Assembly (NCBI GenBank): GCA_902573465.1
Contig: CACGJX010000003.1
Span: 62,001 to 126,000, forward strand
Direction of reading: 5' to 3'
Length of the DNA: 64,000 nt
From: an uncultured Pelagibacteraceae bacterium
Lineage (GTDB): Bacteria; Pseudomonadota; Alphaproteobacteria; Pelagibacterales; Pelagibacteraceae
In this document: in pieces, positions 4,712 through 11,793 of the stretch
Layout: each line of letters starts with the position of its first letter
Numbering within the stretch: position 1 is the first letter of the stretch
Notes under the pieces: model-generated
Database searches by the model: none
What the model saw: the letters and a program-made list of their open reading frames with translations, nothing else
Told to the model about the DNA's origin: nothing
Translations under genes and position numbers: made by a program

Positions 4712-5863
4712 ATGGCACTTCATTTTTCACAAGAAGAATTTTCTAATAGAAAAAGTAAAGTATTAAATTCTATGAAAGAGCAAAACCTGGATGCTCTTTT
4801 AATGTTTAGACAAGAGTCTATGTATTGGTTGACTGGTTATGATACTTTTGGTTATGTTTTTTTTCAAACATTAGTATTAGATAAAAGTGGAAATATAATA
4901 CTGCTCACAAGAGCTCCAGATTTAAGACAGGCTCAAAATACATCTAACATAGAAAATATTAGAATTTGGGTTGATAAAGATGGATCGAATCCAACTGATG
5001 ATCTTAAAGTTATTTTAAATGAGTTAAATCTTAAAGGAAAAAAATTAGGAATTGAATATGAAGCCTATGGTTTAACTGGTCGTAATGCTCTTCGATTAAA
5101 CAAGTCTTTAGAAAATTATTGTTCTCTTGAAGATAAATCGGACTTAATAACAAAAATAAGAGTGGTTAAATCAAAAGAAGAGATTATTTATGTTAAAAAA
5201 GCTGCAGAGCTTGCAGATAAAGCTTTAGATGAAGTATGGAAACATGCAAAAGCTGGTGTTAGTGAGTCTAAAATATTGGCTGAAATGAATAAAGTTATAT
5301 TCGAAGGTGGGGGAGATTACCCTGCAAATGAATTTATAATAGGTTCTGGTAAAAATGCACTGCTTTGTCGCTATCAAGCAGAAAAACAAATTTTAGATAA
5401 TAAAGACCAATTAACTGTTGAATGGGCTGGTACCTATAGACATTACCATTCTGCAATGTTTAGAACTATTCCTATTGGTAAAGCAGATCCTAAACATTAT
5501 GAAATGCATAAAGCATGTGTTGAAGCTCTTAAAAATTGTGAAAGTAAATTAAAACCTGGTAATAAAGTTGGAGAAGTTTTTGATATTCATGCAAAAACTT
5601 TTGATGATCTTGGTTTTAAAGATGCTAGAATGAACGCCTGTGGTTACTCTTTAGGAAACACTTTTTCTCCCAACTGGATGGATTGGCCAATGCTATATGC
5701 AAAAAATCCTTATGTGATTCAGCCTGGAAATGTTTTTTTTATGCATATGATATTAATGGACTCTAAAAACCAGTTAGCAATGAATTTAGGTGAAACTTAT
5801 TTGGTTACAGAGAATGGTAATGAGAGACTTGGTAAACAAAAATTAGATTTAGTAATACTTTAA
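4712..5863 (+). CDS. M24-fold (creatinase/ectoine hydrolase DoeA-like) protein lacking metal ligands
   Basis: A 383-residue pita-bread-fold protein with an N-terminal creatinase domain (residues 10-140) and a C-terminal M24 domain (150-375). Where metallopeptidases have the first two Asp metal ligands, this one reads 'VEWAGTYRHYHSAMFRT'. Near the C-terminus the usual His and Glu ligands are replaced in 'GYSLGNTFSPNWMDW' and 'GNVFFMHMILM'. This matches the non-metallo branch that holds creatinase and ectoine hydrolase (DoeA), so a C-N hydrolase for a small compound is more likely than a prolidase. It is convergent with the ABC permease gene (4 bp overlap). The exact substrate is unknown. Confidence 0.7.
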   Translation: MALHFSQEEFSNRKSKVLNSMKEQNLDALLMFRQESMYWLTGYDTFGYVFFQTLVLDKSGNIILLTRAPDLRQAQNTSNIENIRIWVDKDGSNPTDDLKVILNELNLKGKKLGIEYEAYGLTGRNALRLNKSLENYCSLEDKSDLITKIRVVKSKEEIIYVKKAAELADKALDEVWKHAKAGVSESKILAEMNKVIFEGGGDYPANEFIIGSGKNALLCRYQAEKQILDNKDQLTVEWAGTYRHYHSAMFRTIPIGKADPKHYEMHKACVEALKNCESKLKPGNKVGEVFDIHAKTFDDLGFKDARMNACGYSLGNTFSPNWMDWPMLYAKNPYVIQPGNVFFMHMILMDSKNQLAMNLGETYLVTENGNERLGKQKLDLVIL

Positions 5864-6534
5864 TTAAAACTGTATTTCTTCTCTAAAAACTTTATCACAT
5901 TATGGATAACAAAAGTCATAAATAGATAAATCCCACCAGCTACAATAAATACCTCTATTGGTTTAAAAGTTGTAGAAATTATATATTTTGCAACACCTGT
6001 AAGGTCCATTATGGTGACTGTGCTCGCTAAAGAAGTTCCTTTCATCATCAGGATAATTTCATTTCCATAAGCTGGTAAAGATTGTCTTATGGCGATAGGT
6101 ATCTGAATTTTATAAAAAATTACTTTATTTGAGATGCCCAAACTTTTACCAGCCTCTATTATTCCGGGTTTAATTGTTTGAAATGCTGATCTTAATATCT
6201 CTGAGGTGTAAGCACCAGTGTTTAGAGCAAAAGCAATAATTGCACACCAATATGGTTCTTTTAAAATTACCCATAAAACTGTAGATCTTAAATATTCAAT
6301 CTGACCTAATCCAAAATAAATTATAAAAATTTGTACTAAAAGTGGTGTGCCTCTAAAAATATATGAATATCCGTAAGCAAATCTGTTGATAAAAATATTT
6401 TTATTTAATCTTAGAATTGCAAAAAACAATCCAATCAACAACCCTATTATTAATGAAACTGAAAGAAGTTTTAAAGTTATCACTGCTGCACTTAATAATT
6501 TAGGGAAACTATTAATCATTAACTCAAGATCCAT
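5860..6534 (-). CDS. Polar amino-acid ABC transporter permease (HisM-type)
   Basis: The 224-residue inner-membrane protein has about five transmembrane helices and the EAA-like cytoplasmic loop 'EAGKSLGISNKVIFYKIQIP' (about residue 130), where it contacts the ATPase. 'GTPLLVQIFIIYFGLG' is the typical HisM/HisQ family motif. It starts 1 bp inside the stop of the other permease gene, forming a pair that would make a heterodimeric channel. No ATPase gene lies in this operon. The substrate is probably a polar or basic amino acid, judged from the binding protein. Confidence 0.85.
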   Translation of the reverse strand: MDLELMINSFPKLLSAAVITLKLLSVSLIIGLLIGLFFAILRLNKNIFINRFAYGYSYIFRGTPLLVQIFIIYFGLGQIEYLRSTVLWVILKEPYWCAIIAFALNTGAYTSEILRSAFQTIKPGIIEAGKSLGISNKVIFYKIQIPIAIRQSLPAYGNEIILMMKGTSLASTVTIMDLTGVAKYIISTTFKPIEVFIVAGGIYLFMTFVIHNVIKFLEKKYSFN

Positions 6535-7226
6535 TAGAACCCCCTACTATATTTAACTTCTAATCTATTTATTAATTTCATACTTACAAAAGTAAGTAAT
6601 AAATACAAAACTGCAGCAAATGAATAAAAGAATAATGGATCTCTTGTAGATCCGGCAGCAATATAAGATTGTCTCATGATTTCAACTAAACCTGTAACTG
6701 AAATTAGAGAAGTGTCTTTTAGAGTTATTTGCCAAACATTACTTAGATTTGGAATAGCTAATCTTAATGTTTGAGGTAAAATTATCTTAAAAAATTTTCC
6801 AAACTTATTAAGTCCTAATACATTTGCAGCTTCAAACTGGCCTTTATCGATTGATTGAATAGCTCCTCTAAAAACCTCCGTTGAATAAGCACCAGAGATT
6901 ATTCCAATCGCAAAAGCACCTGTGATAAATGCGTTAATTTCAATATATTCGTTATAACCAAATATTGATGCAACGAACATAACTGCGCCAGTTCCACCAA
7001 AAAAGAAAAGGTAAATTACTAATAATTCTGGAACACCTCTTATTATAGTTGTGTAAGAATTGGCAATAAAATTTAAAAACTTATTTTTAGATAATTTTAA
7101 TGGAGTGAAGATCAATGCAAAAAGAAAACCTATAAACATTGCCGTTATCGAAACAGCTATAGTCATTAGGGTTGCATAAAATAATTCATCACCCCAACCA
7201 GTATCTCCAAATGCTAGAAGTTCCAT
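6534..7226 (-). CDS. Polar amino-acid ABC transporter permease (HisQ-type)
   Basis: A 230-residue membrane protein of the His/Glu/Gln/Arg permease family, with 'RGVPELLVIYLFFFGGTGA' near residue 63 and the EAA loop 'EAANVLGLNKFGKFFKIILP' near residue 132. Five membrane segments are apparent. It lies between the periplasmic binding protein gene (45 bp upstream) and the HisM-type permease, with which it overlaps by 1 bp. It should form the membrane channel together with that protein. Substrate is inferred from the neighbouring binding protein. Confidence 0.85.
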   Translation of the reverse strand: MELLAFGDTGWGDELFYATLMTIAVSITAMFIGFLFALIFTPLKLSKNKFLNFIANSYTTIIRGVPELLVIYLFFFGGTGAVMFVASIFGYNEYIEINAFITGAFAIGIISGAYSTEVFRGAIQSIDKGQFEAANVLGLNKFGKFFKIILPQTLRLAIPNLSNVWQITLKDTSLISVTGLVEIMRQSYIAAGSTRDPLFFYSFAAVLYLLLTFVSMKLINRLEVKYSRGF

Positions 7227-7271
7227 ACAGATCGGCGACTATACATGATAGTCGCCAAATCTAAAATTTAA

Positions 7272-8099
7272 TTACATAGAAGCGTCGAAACCAAACCACT
7301 TAGTAGCAATTCTACTAATGTCTCCGTTTTTTCTCGCTTTATTAATAGCGGCATTAAACTTTTTCAAAAGTTCAGTATCATCTTTTCTAATACCTACTCC
7401 AACACCATTTCCAAATGCACCACCTGAGAAAGTTGGTCCAGTTAAGACAACTGGCTTACCAGATTTTTCTGCATAATCGCTAAATGCAACAGCAGCAGCT
7501 AATGCAGCATCACATCTTCCTGATGCTAAATCTAAGTTAACTTCGTCTTGTGTTTTGTATGTTCTGACATTTACTTTTCCTACATCACCAGAGTCTAAAA
7601 AGTTTTGGTGAATCGTAGCAGTTTGTACACAAACAGTTTTACCTGCTAATGCAGCAGTAAGTGTTTTAAGATCTTTTTTAGCTGCAGCATTTGGTTTTGT
7701 AAGATTTATCCCAGCAGATGTATCTAAACCTTCAAGGCTAGATCCTTTCATGACTGCTAAAGATGCAACCTCATCTGCATATCCTTGAGAAAAGCTAATA
7801 GCTTTTTGTCTTTCTGCAGTAATTGACATTCCTGCCATTATTGCATCAAACTTTCTCATGATTAAAGCTGGAATCATTCCATCCCAATCTTGTTCAACTA
7901 TTACACATTGTTGTCCAATGTATCTGCATAGCGTGTAAGCTAATTCAACTTCGAATCCTATTAACTTACCTGCCTCATTTTTTGAGTTCCATGGAGGATA
8001 AGCACCCTCTGTTCCAATTCTTATTTTATCAGCATTGACATTTCCCATTACCAATAGAGAAAATAAAACTGAAAAAATGGTTTTCTTGAATATATTCAT
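7272..8099 (-). CDS. Periplasmic amino-acid-binding protein (lysine/arginine/ornithine/histidine type)
   Basis: The start chosen is the ATG at 8099, not the ORF-track 8135, because a strong ribosome site (AAAGGAGA) sits just upstream and the resulting N-terminus is a clean signal peptide ending about 'NVNA|DKIRIG'. The 275-residue protein then shows the SBP family 3 pattern: 'IGTEGAYPPWN', 'GFEVELAYTLCRYIG', 'WDGMIPALIMRKFDAIMAGMSIT'. Arg and Asp positions expected to hold the alpha-amino and carboxyl groups of an amino acid are present. It delivers solute to the two permeases encoded downstream. Confidence 0.85.
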   Translation of the reverse strand: MNIFKKTIFSVLFSLLVMGNVNADKIRIGTEGAYPPWNSKNEAGKLIGFEVELAYTLCRYIGQQCVIVEQDWDGMIPALIMRKFDAIMAGMSITAERQKAISFSQGYADEVASLAVMKGSSLEGLDTSAGINLTKPNAAAKKDLKTLTAALAGKTVCVQTATIHQNFLDSGDVGKVNVRTYKTQDEVNLDLASGRCDAALAAAVAFSDYAEKSGKPVVLTGPTFSGGAFGNGVGVGIRKDDTELLKKFNAAINKARKNGDISRIATKWFGFDASM

Positions 8100-8161
8100 T
8101 GTTATCTCCTTTAATAAAAAAAAATAGTATTTCACAGATTATGGATATTAAAAAGAAAAAA

Positions 8162-9202
8162 TTAATGATTTATCGATGAAGAAAAATTCCAAGAACAATC
8201 AAAACTAGGTATGTAAACTCTGGATAAATTAGTGTTTCCAAAATGATGGTTAAATACATTTAACCAATTTTCAACTTGAAGAGGTTTTTTATCCTGACTT
8301 CCTACCTGGGCAGTAATAACTCCTTTGGGTTTGAGTATTCTTACTAAAGAGTCCATATTTTTAGCAGCAAGATCTATACAAAACTGGTCATCATTTAGAT
8401 CAACAAAAATATGATCATATGTATCTTCGTTTACTGTTTTTATACTTTCGAACGCATCACCCCATACACATTTTACAGAATTCTTTTCTGTTGATTTTTT
8501 TCCTATATCACCAAGATGTTTGTTGCAAACCTCCACAACTTCTGGATCTAATTCATACCAATCTATAAAATTAAACTTTTTTGAAATACATTCCCTTGCA
8601 ACACCACCATCGCCACCACCAATTATCGCTGCTCTCTCATTTTTTTTATTTAACTTCAGACCCGCTCCAACAAAAGTTGAACTGTATAAATGTTCATCTG
8701 ATGCCGCTACCTGTATTTCACCATCAATAAATAAAGATTTTCCAAATTGTTCTAATTCTAAAATTTCAATGTGTTGACCAACTTTTGATTTAAAGTCTTC
8801 TAAAACTTCATTTACAACATATGATTTTTGTAATCCAGGTGAACTATAAATATCATGGTAAAGAGATCTGGTATCTCTATTAAATTCTTTTTTAACTATA
8901 CGCTTATGTTCAAATTCTTTTTTAACAATATCGATTGCTACCGATGGACTTATTTTTCCACAGGTAAAAAAATCAAAACTTATTATTCCATTTTCTGGAA
9001 ATGTATGAAAACTGATATGACTTTCGGCCAATAAAGCTAAAATAGTAAAACCCTGAGGTTCAAATTTATATTTAGAAATGTTTAAAATAGTTACATTAGC
9101 TGCTTTAGCTATTTTATGTATCACTTTTTCATAGATTGAAGGATCGTACTCTTTTGTAGTACCTATAATATCTAAAGTAATATGCTCCCCAACTTTAATC
9201 AT
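8162..9202 (-). CDS. SpeD-SpeE fusion: S-adenosylmethionine decarboxylase / spermidine synthase
   Basis: One 346-residue chain joins two enzymes. Residues 1 to about 115 are a prokaryotic AdoMet decarboxylase with the self-cleavage site 'AESHISFHTFPE' (the Ser becomes pyruvoyl) and the downstream catalytic Cys in 'FFTCGK'. Residues about 135-340 are a spermidine-synthase-type aminopropyltransferase: 'IDGEIQVAASDEHLYSS', 'GGGDGGVAREC', 'ELDPEVVEVC', 'VWGDAF', and the catalytic-Asp region 'FVDLNDD'. The fusion would make decarboxylated AdoMet and use it to aminopropylate putrescine, releasing methylthioadenosine. It lies 1 bp from the aldolase gene in the mtn operon, which handles that by-product. 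The usual 'DxTDP' motif is altered to 'DLNDD'. Confidence 0.88.
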   Translation of the reverse strand: MIKVGEHITLDIIGTTKEYDPSIYEKVIHKIAKAANVTILNISKYKFEPQGFTILALLAESHISFHTFPENGIISFDFFTCGKISPSVAIDIVKKEFEHKRIVKKEFNRDTRSLYHDIYSSPGLQKSYVVNEVLEDFKSKVGQHIEILELEQFGKSLFIDGEIQVAASDEHLYSSTFVGAGLKLNKKNERAAIIGGGDGGVARECISKKFNFIDWYELDPEVVEVCNKHLGDIGKKSTEKNSVKCVWGDAFESIKTVNEDTYDHIFVDLNDDQFCIDLAAKNMDSLVRILKPKGVITAQVGSQDKKPLQVENWLNVFNHHFGNTNLSRVYIPSFDCSWNFSSSINH

Positions 9203-9203
9203 C

Positions 9204-9857
9204 TTACCCTTTTTTATAGTTTTTAGCCTTATCTAAAACTTTTTTCATTTCTTCAAATGAAAGTATCTTAGGTTGTCCTAATTTTAAAGCAATAGTGTAT
9301 TGATGACAAATATTTTCTATCTCTTGTGCGAGTTCAAATGCATCCTCTAAATTTTTTCCAAAAGCAACCTGGCCGTGATTAGACATTAAACACGCACTTC
9401 TATTATCTAAAGCTTTGATAACATTTTTAGATAACTCTTCAGTTCCAAAAGTAGCGTATTCTGCACATTTAATGTCTTCTCCGCCTGCAAGAGCAATCAT
9501 ATAATGAAATGGTGGAATAGGTTTTCCATGTGAAGATACAGCCGTTGCGTGTGGAGAATGAGCATGAACAATAGCCTGTGCTTCATTTTTATTTACATAA
9601 ATATCTCGATGAAATCTCCATTCAGATGATGGTTTGTTAGTTGGGTCGTTTTTTTCATCCTCATTTAAACCCATAAAAACAATGTCTTCAGGTTTTAATG
9701 TATCATATTTTTTTCCTGATGGGGTAATTAAGTATCCGTCTATATCATTCTCCGTTCCTCTTAATGATATATTCCCAGATCTAAGAGGTGAAAGGTTTGT
9801 AGAATTTAATCTTAATGAGTACTCAATAATTTGATTTCTTTGATCTAAATTCTTCAT
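9204..9857 (-). CDS. Class II aldolase, probable methylthioribulose-1-phosphate aldolase
   Basis: The 217-residue protein is a class II aldolase/adducin-family metalloenzyme. It shows 'GNISLRG', 'YLITPSGKKYDTL', the general acid/base glutamate region 'SSEWRFHRDIY', and zinc ligands in 'IVHAHSPHAT' and 'MSNHGQVAFG'. The pattern resembles fuculose-phosphate aldolase more than MtnB dehydratase. Its place between mtnA and speDE suggests it cleaves methylthioribulose-1-phosphate to dihydroxyacetone phosphate and methylthioacetaldehyde (the DHAP shunt), since no mtnC or mtnD is seen nearby. MtnB activity is the main alternative. It overlaps mtnA by 4 bp. Confidence 0.75.
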   Translation of the reverse strand: MKNLDQRNQIIEYSLRLNSTNLSPLRSGNISLRGTENDIDGYLITPSGKKYDTLKPEDIVFMGLNEDEKNDPTNKPSSEWRFHRDIYVNKNEAQAIVHAHSPHATAVSSHGKPIPPFHYMIALAGGEDIKCAEYATFGTEELSKNVIKALDNRSACLMSNHGQVAFGKNLEDAFELAQEIENICHQYTIALKLGQPKILSFEEMKKVLDKAKNYKKG

Positions 9858-10924
9858 TTAAATAATTCTTTAAGTCCTTTCTCCGATGCTTCACACACGC
9901 CTTTTTCAGTAATTAATCCAGTAACATATTTTGCAGGAGTTACATCAAAAGCTAAATTCATAGCTTTACTTTTTTTTGGATAAATTTGTATTTTCTTTAT
10001 ATCTCCTTTTTCATCTAAACCTTTAACATGAGATAATTCATCTGAATTTCTCTCTTCGATTGGGATATCTTTACGATCTTTTATGTTCCAGTCAATTGTT
10101 GAACTTGGTAGCGCAACATAAAAAGGAATGTTGTTATCATGAGCTGCTAGTGCTTTTAGATAAGTTCCAACCTTATTACAAACATCTCCATTGGCTAGAG
10201 TTCTATCAGTTCCAACAATACACATATCAACTTCACCTCTTTGCATTAATATACCACCTGTATTATCTGCAATGATTGTGTTCTTAATTCCTTCTTCATT
10301 TAATTCATAAGAAGTAAGATTTGCTCCTTGATTTCTTGGCCTAGTTTCATCAGCCCAAACATGAATGGGAATTCCTTTTTTGTGCGCATGATAAATTGGA
10401 GAAGTTGCGGTCCCCCAATTTATTGTTGCAAGCCATCCTGCATTACAATGAGTTAATATATTAACTATATCTTTTTTTTTATTATAGATTTCCTCAATAA
10501 TTTTTAGTCCATTTAAACCTATACTTTCACAAAATTTCACATCCTCTTCACATATATCTTTTGCTTCATTCAAGGCTATTTCTAGAATTTTATCACTATT
10601 AACACCTGATAATTTATTCATCATTCTATCAATAGCCCACTTCAAATTAATTGCCGTTGGTCTTGAGCTAATTAAATCTTCTGCAGATTTTTTTAAAAAT
10701 GATTGATCATTATTTTCAATTATAGCTAAAACCAATCCATAAGCTGCTGTAGCTCCTATTAAAGGTGCTCCTCTTACCTCCATAACCTTAATTGCATTTA
10801 TTGAGTCCTTAACTGTTTTAAGGTCTTTAATAATAAATTGGTGTGGAAGTTTTGTTTGATCAATAATTTTAACAACATTATTTTCAAACCAAATAGTACG
10901 ATATTCTTTTCCTTCTATTCTCAT
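9854..10924 (-). CDS. mtnA: S-methyl-5-thioribose-1-phosphate isomerase
   Basis: The 356-residue protein has the MtnA/eIF2B-alpha-like signature: 'VMEVRGAPLIGATAAYG', 'ILTHCNAGWLATINWGTA' with the catalytic Cys, and 'ADNTGGILMQRGEVDMCIVGTDR' with the catalytic Asp. It converts methylthioribose-1-phosphate to methylthioribulose-1-phosphate in the cytoplasm. Its start shares one base with the mtnP stop, and the aldolase start overlaps its end by 4 bp, so the three are almost surely cotranscribed. Length is normal for the family. Confidence 0.93.
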   Translation of the reverse strand: MRIEGKEYRTIWFENNVVKIIDQTKLPHQFIIKDLKTVKDSINAIKVMEVRGAPLIGATAAYGLVLAIIENNDQSFLKKSAEDLISSRPTAINLKWAIDRMMNKLSGVNSDKILEIALNEAKDICEEDVKFCESIGLNGLKIIEEIYNKKKDIVNILTHCNAGWLATINWGTATSPIYHAHKKGIPIHVWADETRPRNQGANLTSYELNEEGIKNTIIADNTGGILMQRGEVDMCIVGTDRTLANGDVCNKVGTYLKALAAHDNNIPFYVALPSSTIDWNIKDRKDIPIEERNSDELSHVKGLDEKGDIKKIQIYPKKSKAMNLAFDVTPAKYVTGLITEKGVCEASEKGLKELFK

Positions 10925-11793
10925 TAATTTAAAACTCTACCAGCAACAGTTTTAAGTTTTTCTTTTGTCTTTTTTGTTCTTTTTTCAGGTGCTGTAATAA
11001 TTGCAACATCTAAACAATTATTGGTTGGATCATTAGGATCAATGTGATTTTCAAAGTTTTCTATTAAATTTTTAATCATATTTTTTGCCTTAGCAGCATT
11101 ATCTAATAAAACTTTTACTACTTGTTGAACATCAACATTTTCATGATCAGGATGCCAACAATCGTAGTCAGTGACCATTGATACAGATGCATATCTTATC
11201 TCTGCCTCTCTTGCTAATTTCGCCTCTGGCATATTAGTCATTCCAATTACATCTGCTTTCCAAGATCTATATAAATTTGATTCTGCTAAGGTTGAAAATT
11301 GAGGTCCTTCCATAACAACATAAGTACCATTTCTTTGATATTCAATTTTCTCTTTTTTTATTGCCTCTTCACATGCGTTCATCAAACCATTTGATGTTGG
11401 GTGAGCCATAGAAACGTGAGCAACAATTTCATCATCAAAAAATGTTTTTTCCCTTGCAAATGTTCGGTCAATGAATTGGTCAACAATAACAAATTTTCCT
11501 GGTGGCAACTCCTCTTTTAAAGACCCCACTGCTGAAACTGACACAATATCTGTCACACCTAACTGTTTAAGAGCATCAATATTTGCTCTAAAATTAATTT
11601 TTGAGGGAGAAACAAAGTGACCTCTTCCATGTCTTGGTAAGAAGTAAACTTCTTTATTGTTATAATTAGTTTTTAAAATTTGGTCTGAGGGTTTTCCCCA
11701 AGGAGTGTTTAAATCTAACAATTCTCTATTTTTAAATTCTTCAACATCATAAAGCCCACTACCACCAATTATTGCTAATTTATTTATTGTCAT
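10924..11793 (-). CDS. mtnP: S-methyl-5'-thioadenosine phosphorylase
   Basis: A 289-residue purine-nucleoside-phosphorylase-fold protein: 'AIIGGSGLYDVEEF' at the N-terminus, phosphate-binding 'LPRHGRGHFVSPSKINFRANI', and 'VMEGPQFSTLAESNLYRSW' with 'VIGMTNMPEAKLAREAEI' in the base/ribose pocket. It phosphorolyses methylthioadenosine, the spermidine-synthase by-product, to adenine and methylthioribose-1-phosphate. First gene of the leftward mtnP-mtnA-aldolase-speDE run and divergent (41 bp gap) from apt, which salvages the adenine released. Confidence 0.93.
   Translation of the reverse strand: MTINKLAIIGGSGLYDVEEFKNRELLDLNTPWGKPSDQILKTNYNNKEVYFLPRHGRGHFVSPSKINFRANIDALKQLGVTDIVSVSAVGSLKEELPPGKFVIVDQFIDRTFAREKTFFDDEIVAHVSMAHPTSNGLMNACEEAIKKEKIEYQRNGTYVVMEGPQFSTLAESNLYRSWKADVIGMTNMPEAKLAREAEIRYASVSMVTDYDCWHPDHENVDVQQVVKVLLDNAAKAKNMIKNLIENFENHIDPNDPTNNCLDVAIITAPEKRTKKTKEKLKTVAGRVLN

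Follow-up and report, generated by a model that had tools for sequence, protein, structure and literature searches.

A fused AdoMet decarboxylase-aminopropyltransferase gene, speDE, in a SAR11 genome and its gene neighbourhood

Do the AdoMet decarboxylase (SpeD) and aminopropyltransferase (SpeE) segments that share one open frame in a SAR11 genome belong to a genuine bifunctional protein, and what would such a protein do for the cell? We examined this in a stretch of 64,000 nucleotides (the window) from a genome of the Pelagibacteraceae (SAR11). A sequence-only reading had proposed that the two enzymes are fused in one chain, and both families were indeed matched along a single 346-aa frame (Pfam, NCBIfam), which runs from ATG start to stop over exactly 8162..9202 of the minus strand. 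The gene and its parts are as follows.

8162..9202, minus strand: speDE, fused AdoMet decarboxylase-aminopropyltransferase (ORF, Pfam and NCBIfam matches, fused frame conserved in SAR11)
8876..9184, minus strand: SpeD domain, class 1b, residues 7-109 (PF02675, AdoMet_dc, E 2.6e-27)
8708..8848, minus strand: spermidine synthase N-terminal (tetramerisation) domain, residues 119-165 (PF17284, Spermine_synt_N, E 7.7e-8)
8183..8695, minus strand: aminopropyltransferase catalytic domain, residues 170-340 (PF01564, Spermine_synth, E 6.8e-23)
9020..9022, minus strand: codon of Ser61, predicted pyruvoyl precursor, with cleavage expected between Glu60 and Ser61 (conserved motif and alignment to class 1b)
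8387..8401, minus strand: DLNDD, residues 268-272, corresponding to D-S-S-D-P (aligned with 2hte, 2pwp and 3bwb)

E-values of this order place the three domain matches far beyond chance. The SpeD half also passes TIGR03330 (SAM_DCase_Bsu) at 96.7 bits against a cut-off of 75.65 and can be aligned with the class 1b structures 2iii and 1tlu, while the SpeE half aligns with the Plasmodium spermidine synthase (SpdSyn) 2hte over 216 residues. The SpeE half clearly matches the speE equivalog models of NCBIfam but stays below their cut-offs (122 bits for a cut-off of 260, 98 bits for one of 249.55); it is a divergent, shortened member, so the family name assigns no specific acceptor. The motifs picked out by the sequence-only reading all lie in the one frame, 'AESHISFHTFPE' at residues 59-70, 'GGGDGGVAREC' at 195-205 and 'DLNDD' at 268-272. 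The gene is the genome's sole AdoMet_dc match and its sole Spermine_synth match over cut-off. A PDB search found no structure of a SAR11 SpeD-SpeE fusion, and a structure prediction of the protein, built on a shallow alignment of 18 sequences, was too poor for use (mean pLDDT 46.7, pTM 0.40). An Rfam scan of the window returned one tRNA and nothing else.

A known SAR11 enzyme and its proposed role

The observation of a fused gene was correct, and the enzyme is already known as the standard fusion of SAR11. The Ca. Pelagibacter fusions of HTCC1062 and HTCC7211 have been expressed: their decarboxylase works, they restore spermidine to an E. coli speD mutant, and the transferase yields spermidine, spermine and thermospermine, together with norspermidine from diaminopropane (PMC11107197). 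PMC8437039 likewise discusses the fusion, including how broad its substrate range is, and SpeD-SpeE fusions of this kind go back to Green et al. (2011, Mol Microbiol 81:1109), as cited in PMC12803844 and PMC8437039. speDE has SpeD at the N-terminus and SpeE at the C-terminus of one frame in a Pelagibacterales genome; the HTCC1062 (WP_011282223) and HTCC7211 (WP_008544956) proteins agree with it in domain order and bacterial lineage, with no known difference. All three are almost certainly orthologues, judging by key motifs shared across 148 of 148 family copies. Those copies were collected with SpeD-part motifs, GGGDGG and a C-terminal PSFDC as patterns, so their invariance at these sites follows in part from the way they were picked. 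There is little surprise in the finding, as earlier papers on the same lineage describe the fusion, its activity and how wide its range of acceptors is.

We are highly confident that speDE is the fused enzyme already described in Ca. Pelagibacter, serving spermidine synthesis, with MTA presumably processed by the products of the mtnP-mtnA-aldolase genes. By this route the proenzyme would cleave itself before Ser61 to generate the pyruvoyl cofactor, the SpeD half would decarboxylate AdoMet, and the SpeE half would use putrescine as aminopropyl acceptor and, to judge from the assayed orthologues, spermidine and diaminopropane as well. Putrescine would probably be made from arginine, as suggested by the gene content of a cluster elsewhere in the genome (C5:30699-33703) with ODC/ADC-type decarboxylase, deoxyhypusine-synthase-like and agmatinase-family genes; a matching cluster has been published for Ca. 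Pelagibacter (PMC9992855). The by-product MTA would be handled by the co-directional mtnP, mtnA and aldolase genes.

It is quite unlikely that the main cellular role is instead breakdown, with the transferase running in reverse on imported spermidine or norspermidine and the SpeD half secondary. A reversible SpeE has been proposed in HTCC7211 from metabolite changes (PMC8437039), but in the available portion of that paper the reverse reaction comes without a purified-enzyme demonstration, biosynthetic activity has been demonstrated (PMC11107197), and purifying selection acts on the residues of SpeD as it does on those of SpeE. Spermidine synthesis is thus the role we prefer, and its significance is that SAR11 are among the commonest surface-ocean bacteria and that one fused enzyme covers the synthesis, as already published. 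What is added here is modest, namely that DLNDD and a short tail are fixed family-wide and that the neighbouring genes suggest a DHAP shunt as the fate of MTA.

Gene neighbourhood and a possible route for MTA

The genes flanking speDE lie on the same strand.

10924..11793, minus strand: mtnP, MTA phosphorylase (NF006492, 446 bits, and TIGR01694, 315 bits, both above cut-off)
9854..10924, minus strand: mtnA, S-methyl-5-thioribose-1-phosphate isomerase (TIGR00512, 423 bits, above cut-off)
9204..9857, minus strand: class II aldolase of fuculose-phosphate or ribulose-phosphate type, a candidate for the DHAP-shunt aldolase (upstream of speDE, 1 base away)
7272..8135, minus strand: binding protein of a basic amino acid (Lys/Arg/Orn type) ABC transporter (TIGR01096, 229 bits, below the cut-off of 256)
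6534-7226 and 5860-6534, minus strand: permease-like genes, following the binding-protein gene

Upstream, mtnP, mtnA and the aldolase are spaced from one another and from speDE by no more than a few bases, or overlap by as little; downstream stand the binding protein and then the two permease-like genes. Almost all relatives with sufficient flanking sequence share this arrangement. The aldolase matches PDB 1fua at E 2e-45, and its NCBIfam scores, all below cut-off, are 192 bits for fuculose-phosphate aldolase, 176 for ribulose-1-phosphate aldolase and 67 for mtnB. No match over cut-off to acireductone dioxygenase, which catalyses the oxygen-dependent step in methionine salvage, was found in 40 family genomes. 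The cluster of mtnP, mtnA and a fuculose-phosphate-aldolase-like gene and the absence of acireductone dioxygenase therefore suggest, at the level of gene content, that MTA in SAR11 may enter a DHAP shunt rather than classical methionine salvage. Such a shunt is known in Rhodospirillum and some E. coli (PMC6302742, PMC10986504), and a limited literature search found no paper reporting it for SAR11.

As a separate observation, the conserved transporter genes downstream of speDE (5860-8135, minus strand) could supply arginine for putrescine.

Catalytic motifs of the two halves

The segments of speDE conserved around cleavage and active sites are ESHxSFHxFPE, FFTC, GGGDGG, E217, GDAF, D268 with D271, and Q299. 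ESHxSFHxFPE is kept in 148 of 148 family copies (which were in part chosen by SpeD motifs) and aligns with ESH..HT.PE in class 1b enzymes of solved structure; residues E60-S61-H62, H66 and C81 align with 2iii and 1tlu and are invariant in the family. The proposal that self-cleavage would leave a short beta chain and an alpha chain still carrying SpeE is supported by the conserved E60-S61 site, cleavage itself being predicted from homology to class 1b (1tlu, 2iii). The beta chain would have 60 residues (6.7 kDa) and the alpha chain, with SpeE, 286 residues (32.4 kDa). Direct passage of decarboxylated AdoMet from one half to the other, which the sequence-only reading also proposed, is a purely hypothetical benefit of such a chain.

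Neofunctionalised SpeD homologues exist in bacteria, archaea and pelagiphages, and the SpeD half could in principle be an arginine or ornithine decarboxylase, the fusion then yielding a diamine precursor rather than dcAdoMet. This is highly improbable, given that this SpeD is the genome's only one and is fused to SpeE, that it exceeds the SAM_DCase_Bsu cut-off, that an E. coli speD mutant regains spermidine with Pelagibacter orthologues (PMC11107197), and that the genome has separate ODC/ADC and agmatinase-family genes. An AdoMet decarboxylase thus remains our assignment for the SpeD half.

In the SpeE half, the dcAdoMet site GGGDGG occupies residues 195-200, and DLNDD aligns on the DSSDP and DTTDP of the Plasmodium and trypanosomal spermidine synthases. 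Asp268 and Asp271 fall on the two active-site aspartates of D-x-x-D-P, with the proline missing. The counterpart of Asp268 is the catalytic base (human Asp173; PMC12812037), and that of Asp271 is Plasmodium Asp199, which binds putrescine at its far amine (PMC4342090). DLNDD is invariant in all 148 family copies (126 distinct sequences), as are ESHxSFH and GDAF; DLNDD and GDAF played no part in choosing these copies. The motif had been described as changed, which holds against canonical SpeE, where the proline is present, but not within the family, where DLNDD is the rule. We conclude that DLNDD is a family trait in which the catalytic Asp pair is kept. The further idea that it may alter the amine accepted was overstated, since both aspartates are kept and the motif is family-wide, although the acceptor range of the published orthologues is indeed broad.

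The same alignments show other departures in the SAR11 fusion: the Tyr-His-Glu of the Plasmodium and trypanosomal enzymes becomes Tyr-Ser-Ser (Ser-Ser after the Tyr79 position), the Tyr of IPTY (Tyr241 position) becomes Phe, and the SpeE half ends about 54 residues before the C-terminus of Plasmodium SpdSyn (in 2hte, a chain of 283 residues, the match stops at 229). Nothing ties the broad acceptor range of the orthologues to DLNDD over the Phe at Tyr241, the Ser-Ser after Tyr79 or the missing tail. A wider scheme, which we regard as rather unlikely, is that the shortened DLNDD transferase is adapted to broad and reversible transfer and that its cluster is coupled to an MTA-draining DHAP shunt; SAR11 would then use a single enzyme for the synthesis as well as the breakdown of polyamines and would regain ribose carbon as DHAP.

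Conservation of the fused frame and related fusions

Uninterrupted copies of the fused frame are present in 30 of 36 other genomes of the same genus (74-98% identity), and completeness, mostly 55-90%, can explain its absence from the rest. Across the order, 160 of 198 genomes carry it; among them are four sister genera, where identity is about 62-65%. The closest contigs, 80 independent GenBank contigs from uncultured Pelagibacteraceae (SAR11), match essentially the full length of the protein at 91-99% identity, and no internal stop was found in any listed copy. Synonymous divergence far exceeds non-synonymous divergence in each of three segments, SpeD, linker and SpeE. Because the frame is conserved across the order and all three segments carry this mark of selection, the comparative record indicates that the fusion is real, old and selected. 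The sequence-only reading had named a frameshift artificially joining two genes as what would overturn it; although the window's draft assembly is in 29 contigs, the chance that a sequencing or assembly error made the fusion is practically negligible, the same frame recurring in the genus, the order and the 80 contigs with its linker under purifying selection.

In 24 sampled genomes of another family (f2) no full-length match was found. Two nearly complete genomes of the same family as the window (G351 and G371, genus g227) have no match to the fusion, possibly through loss of the route. A phage or mobile origin of speDE was considered and rejected: peptide patterns of the protein found no relative among IMG/VR viral contigs.

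Stand-alone class 1b SpeD and SpeE are encoded by separate genes, although each domain of speDE matches its family; canonical SpeE reads D-x-[ST]-D-P where speDE has DLNDD, and extends about 54 residues further at the C-terminus. Independent fusions in other Alphaproteobacteria (L117, L118, L120 and L125) also carry SpeD then SpeE in one frame, but are only about 24-30% identical to speDE. Unlike speDE, the first three retain DSTDP and a full C-terminal tail, and L125 has DLPDE and an altered GGGDGG. The fusion represented by L125 and L119 (Alphaproteobacteria, genomes G183 and G287) reads GSSEG at the dcAdoMet site and DLPDE at the acceptor loop; both genomes carry further SpeD/SpeE-like matches, and this fusion may serve another function.

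Animal spermine synthase (PDB 3c6k), like speDE, joins a class 1b SpeD-like N-terminal domain to an aminopropyltransferase, and is held to derive from the same kind of bacterial fusion, having been traced to an AdoMetDC-SpmSyn protein (PMC12803844). Its sequence match to speDE, over residues 123-231, is weak, and the animal enzyme is without decarboxylase activity, whereas the SAR11 enzyme retains the cleavage site.
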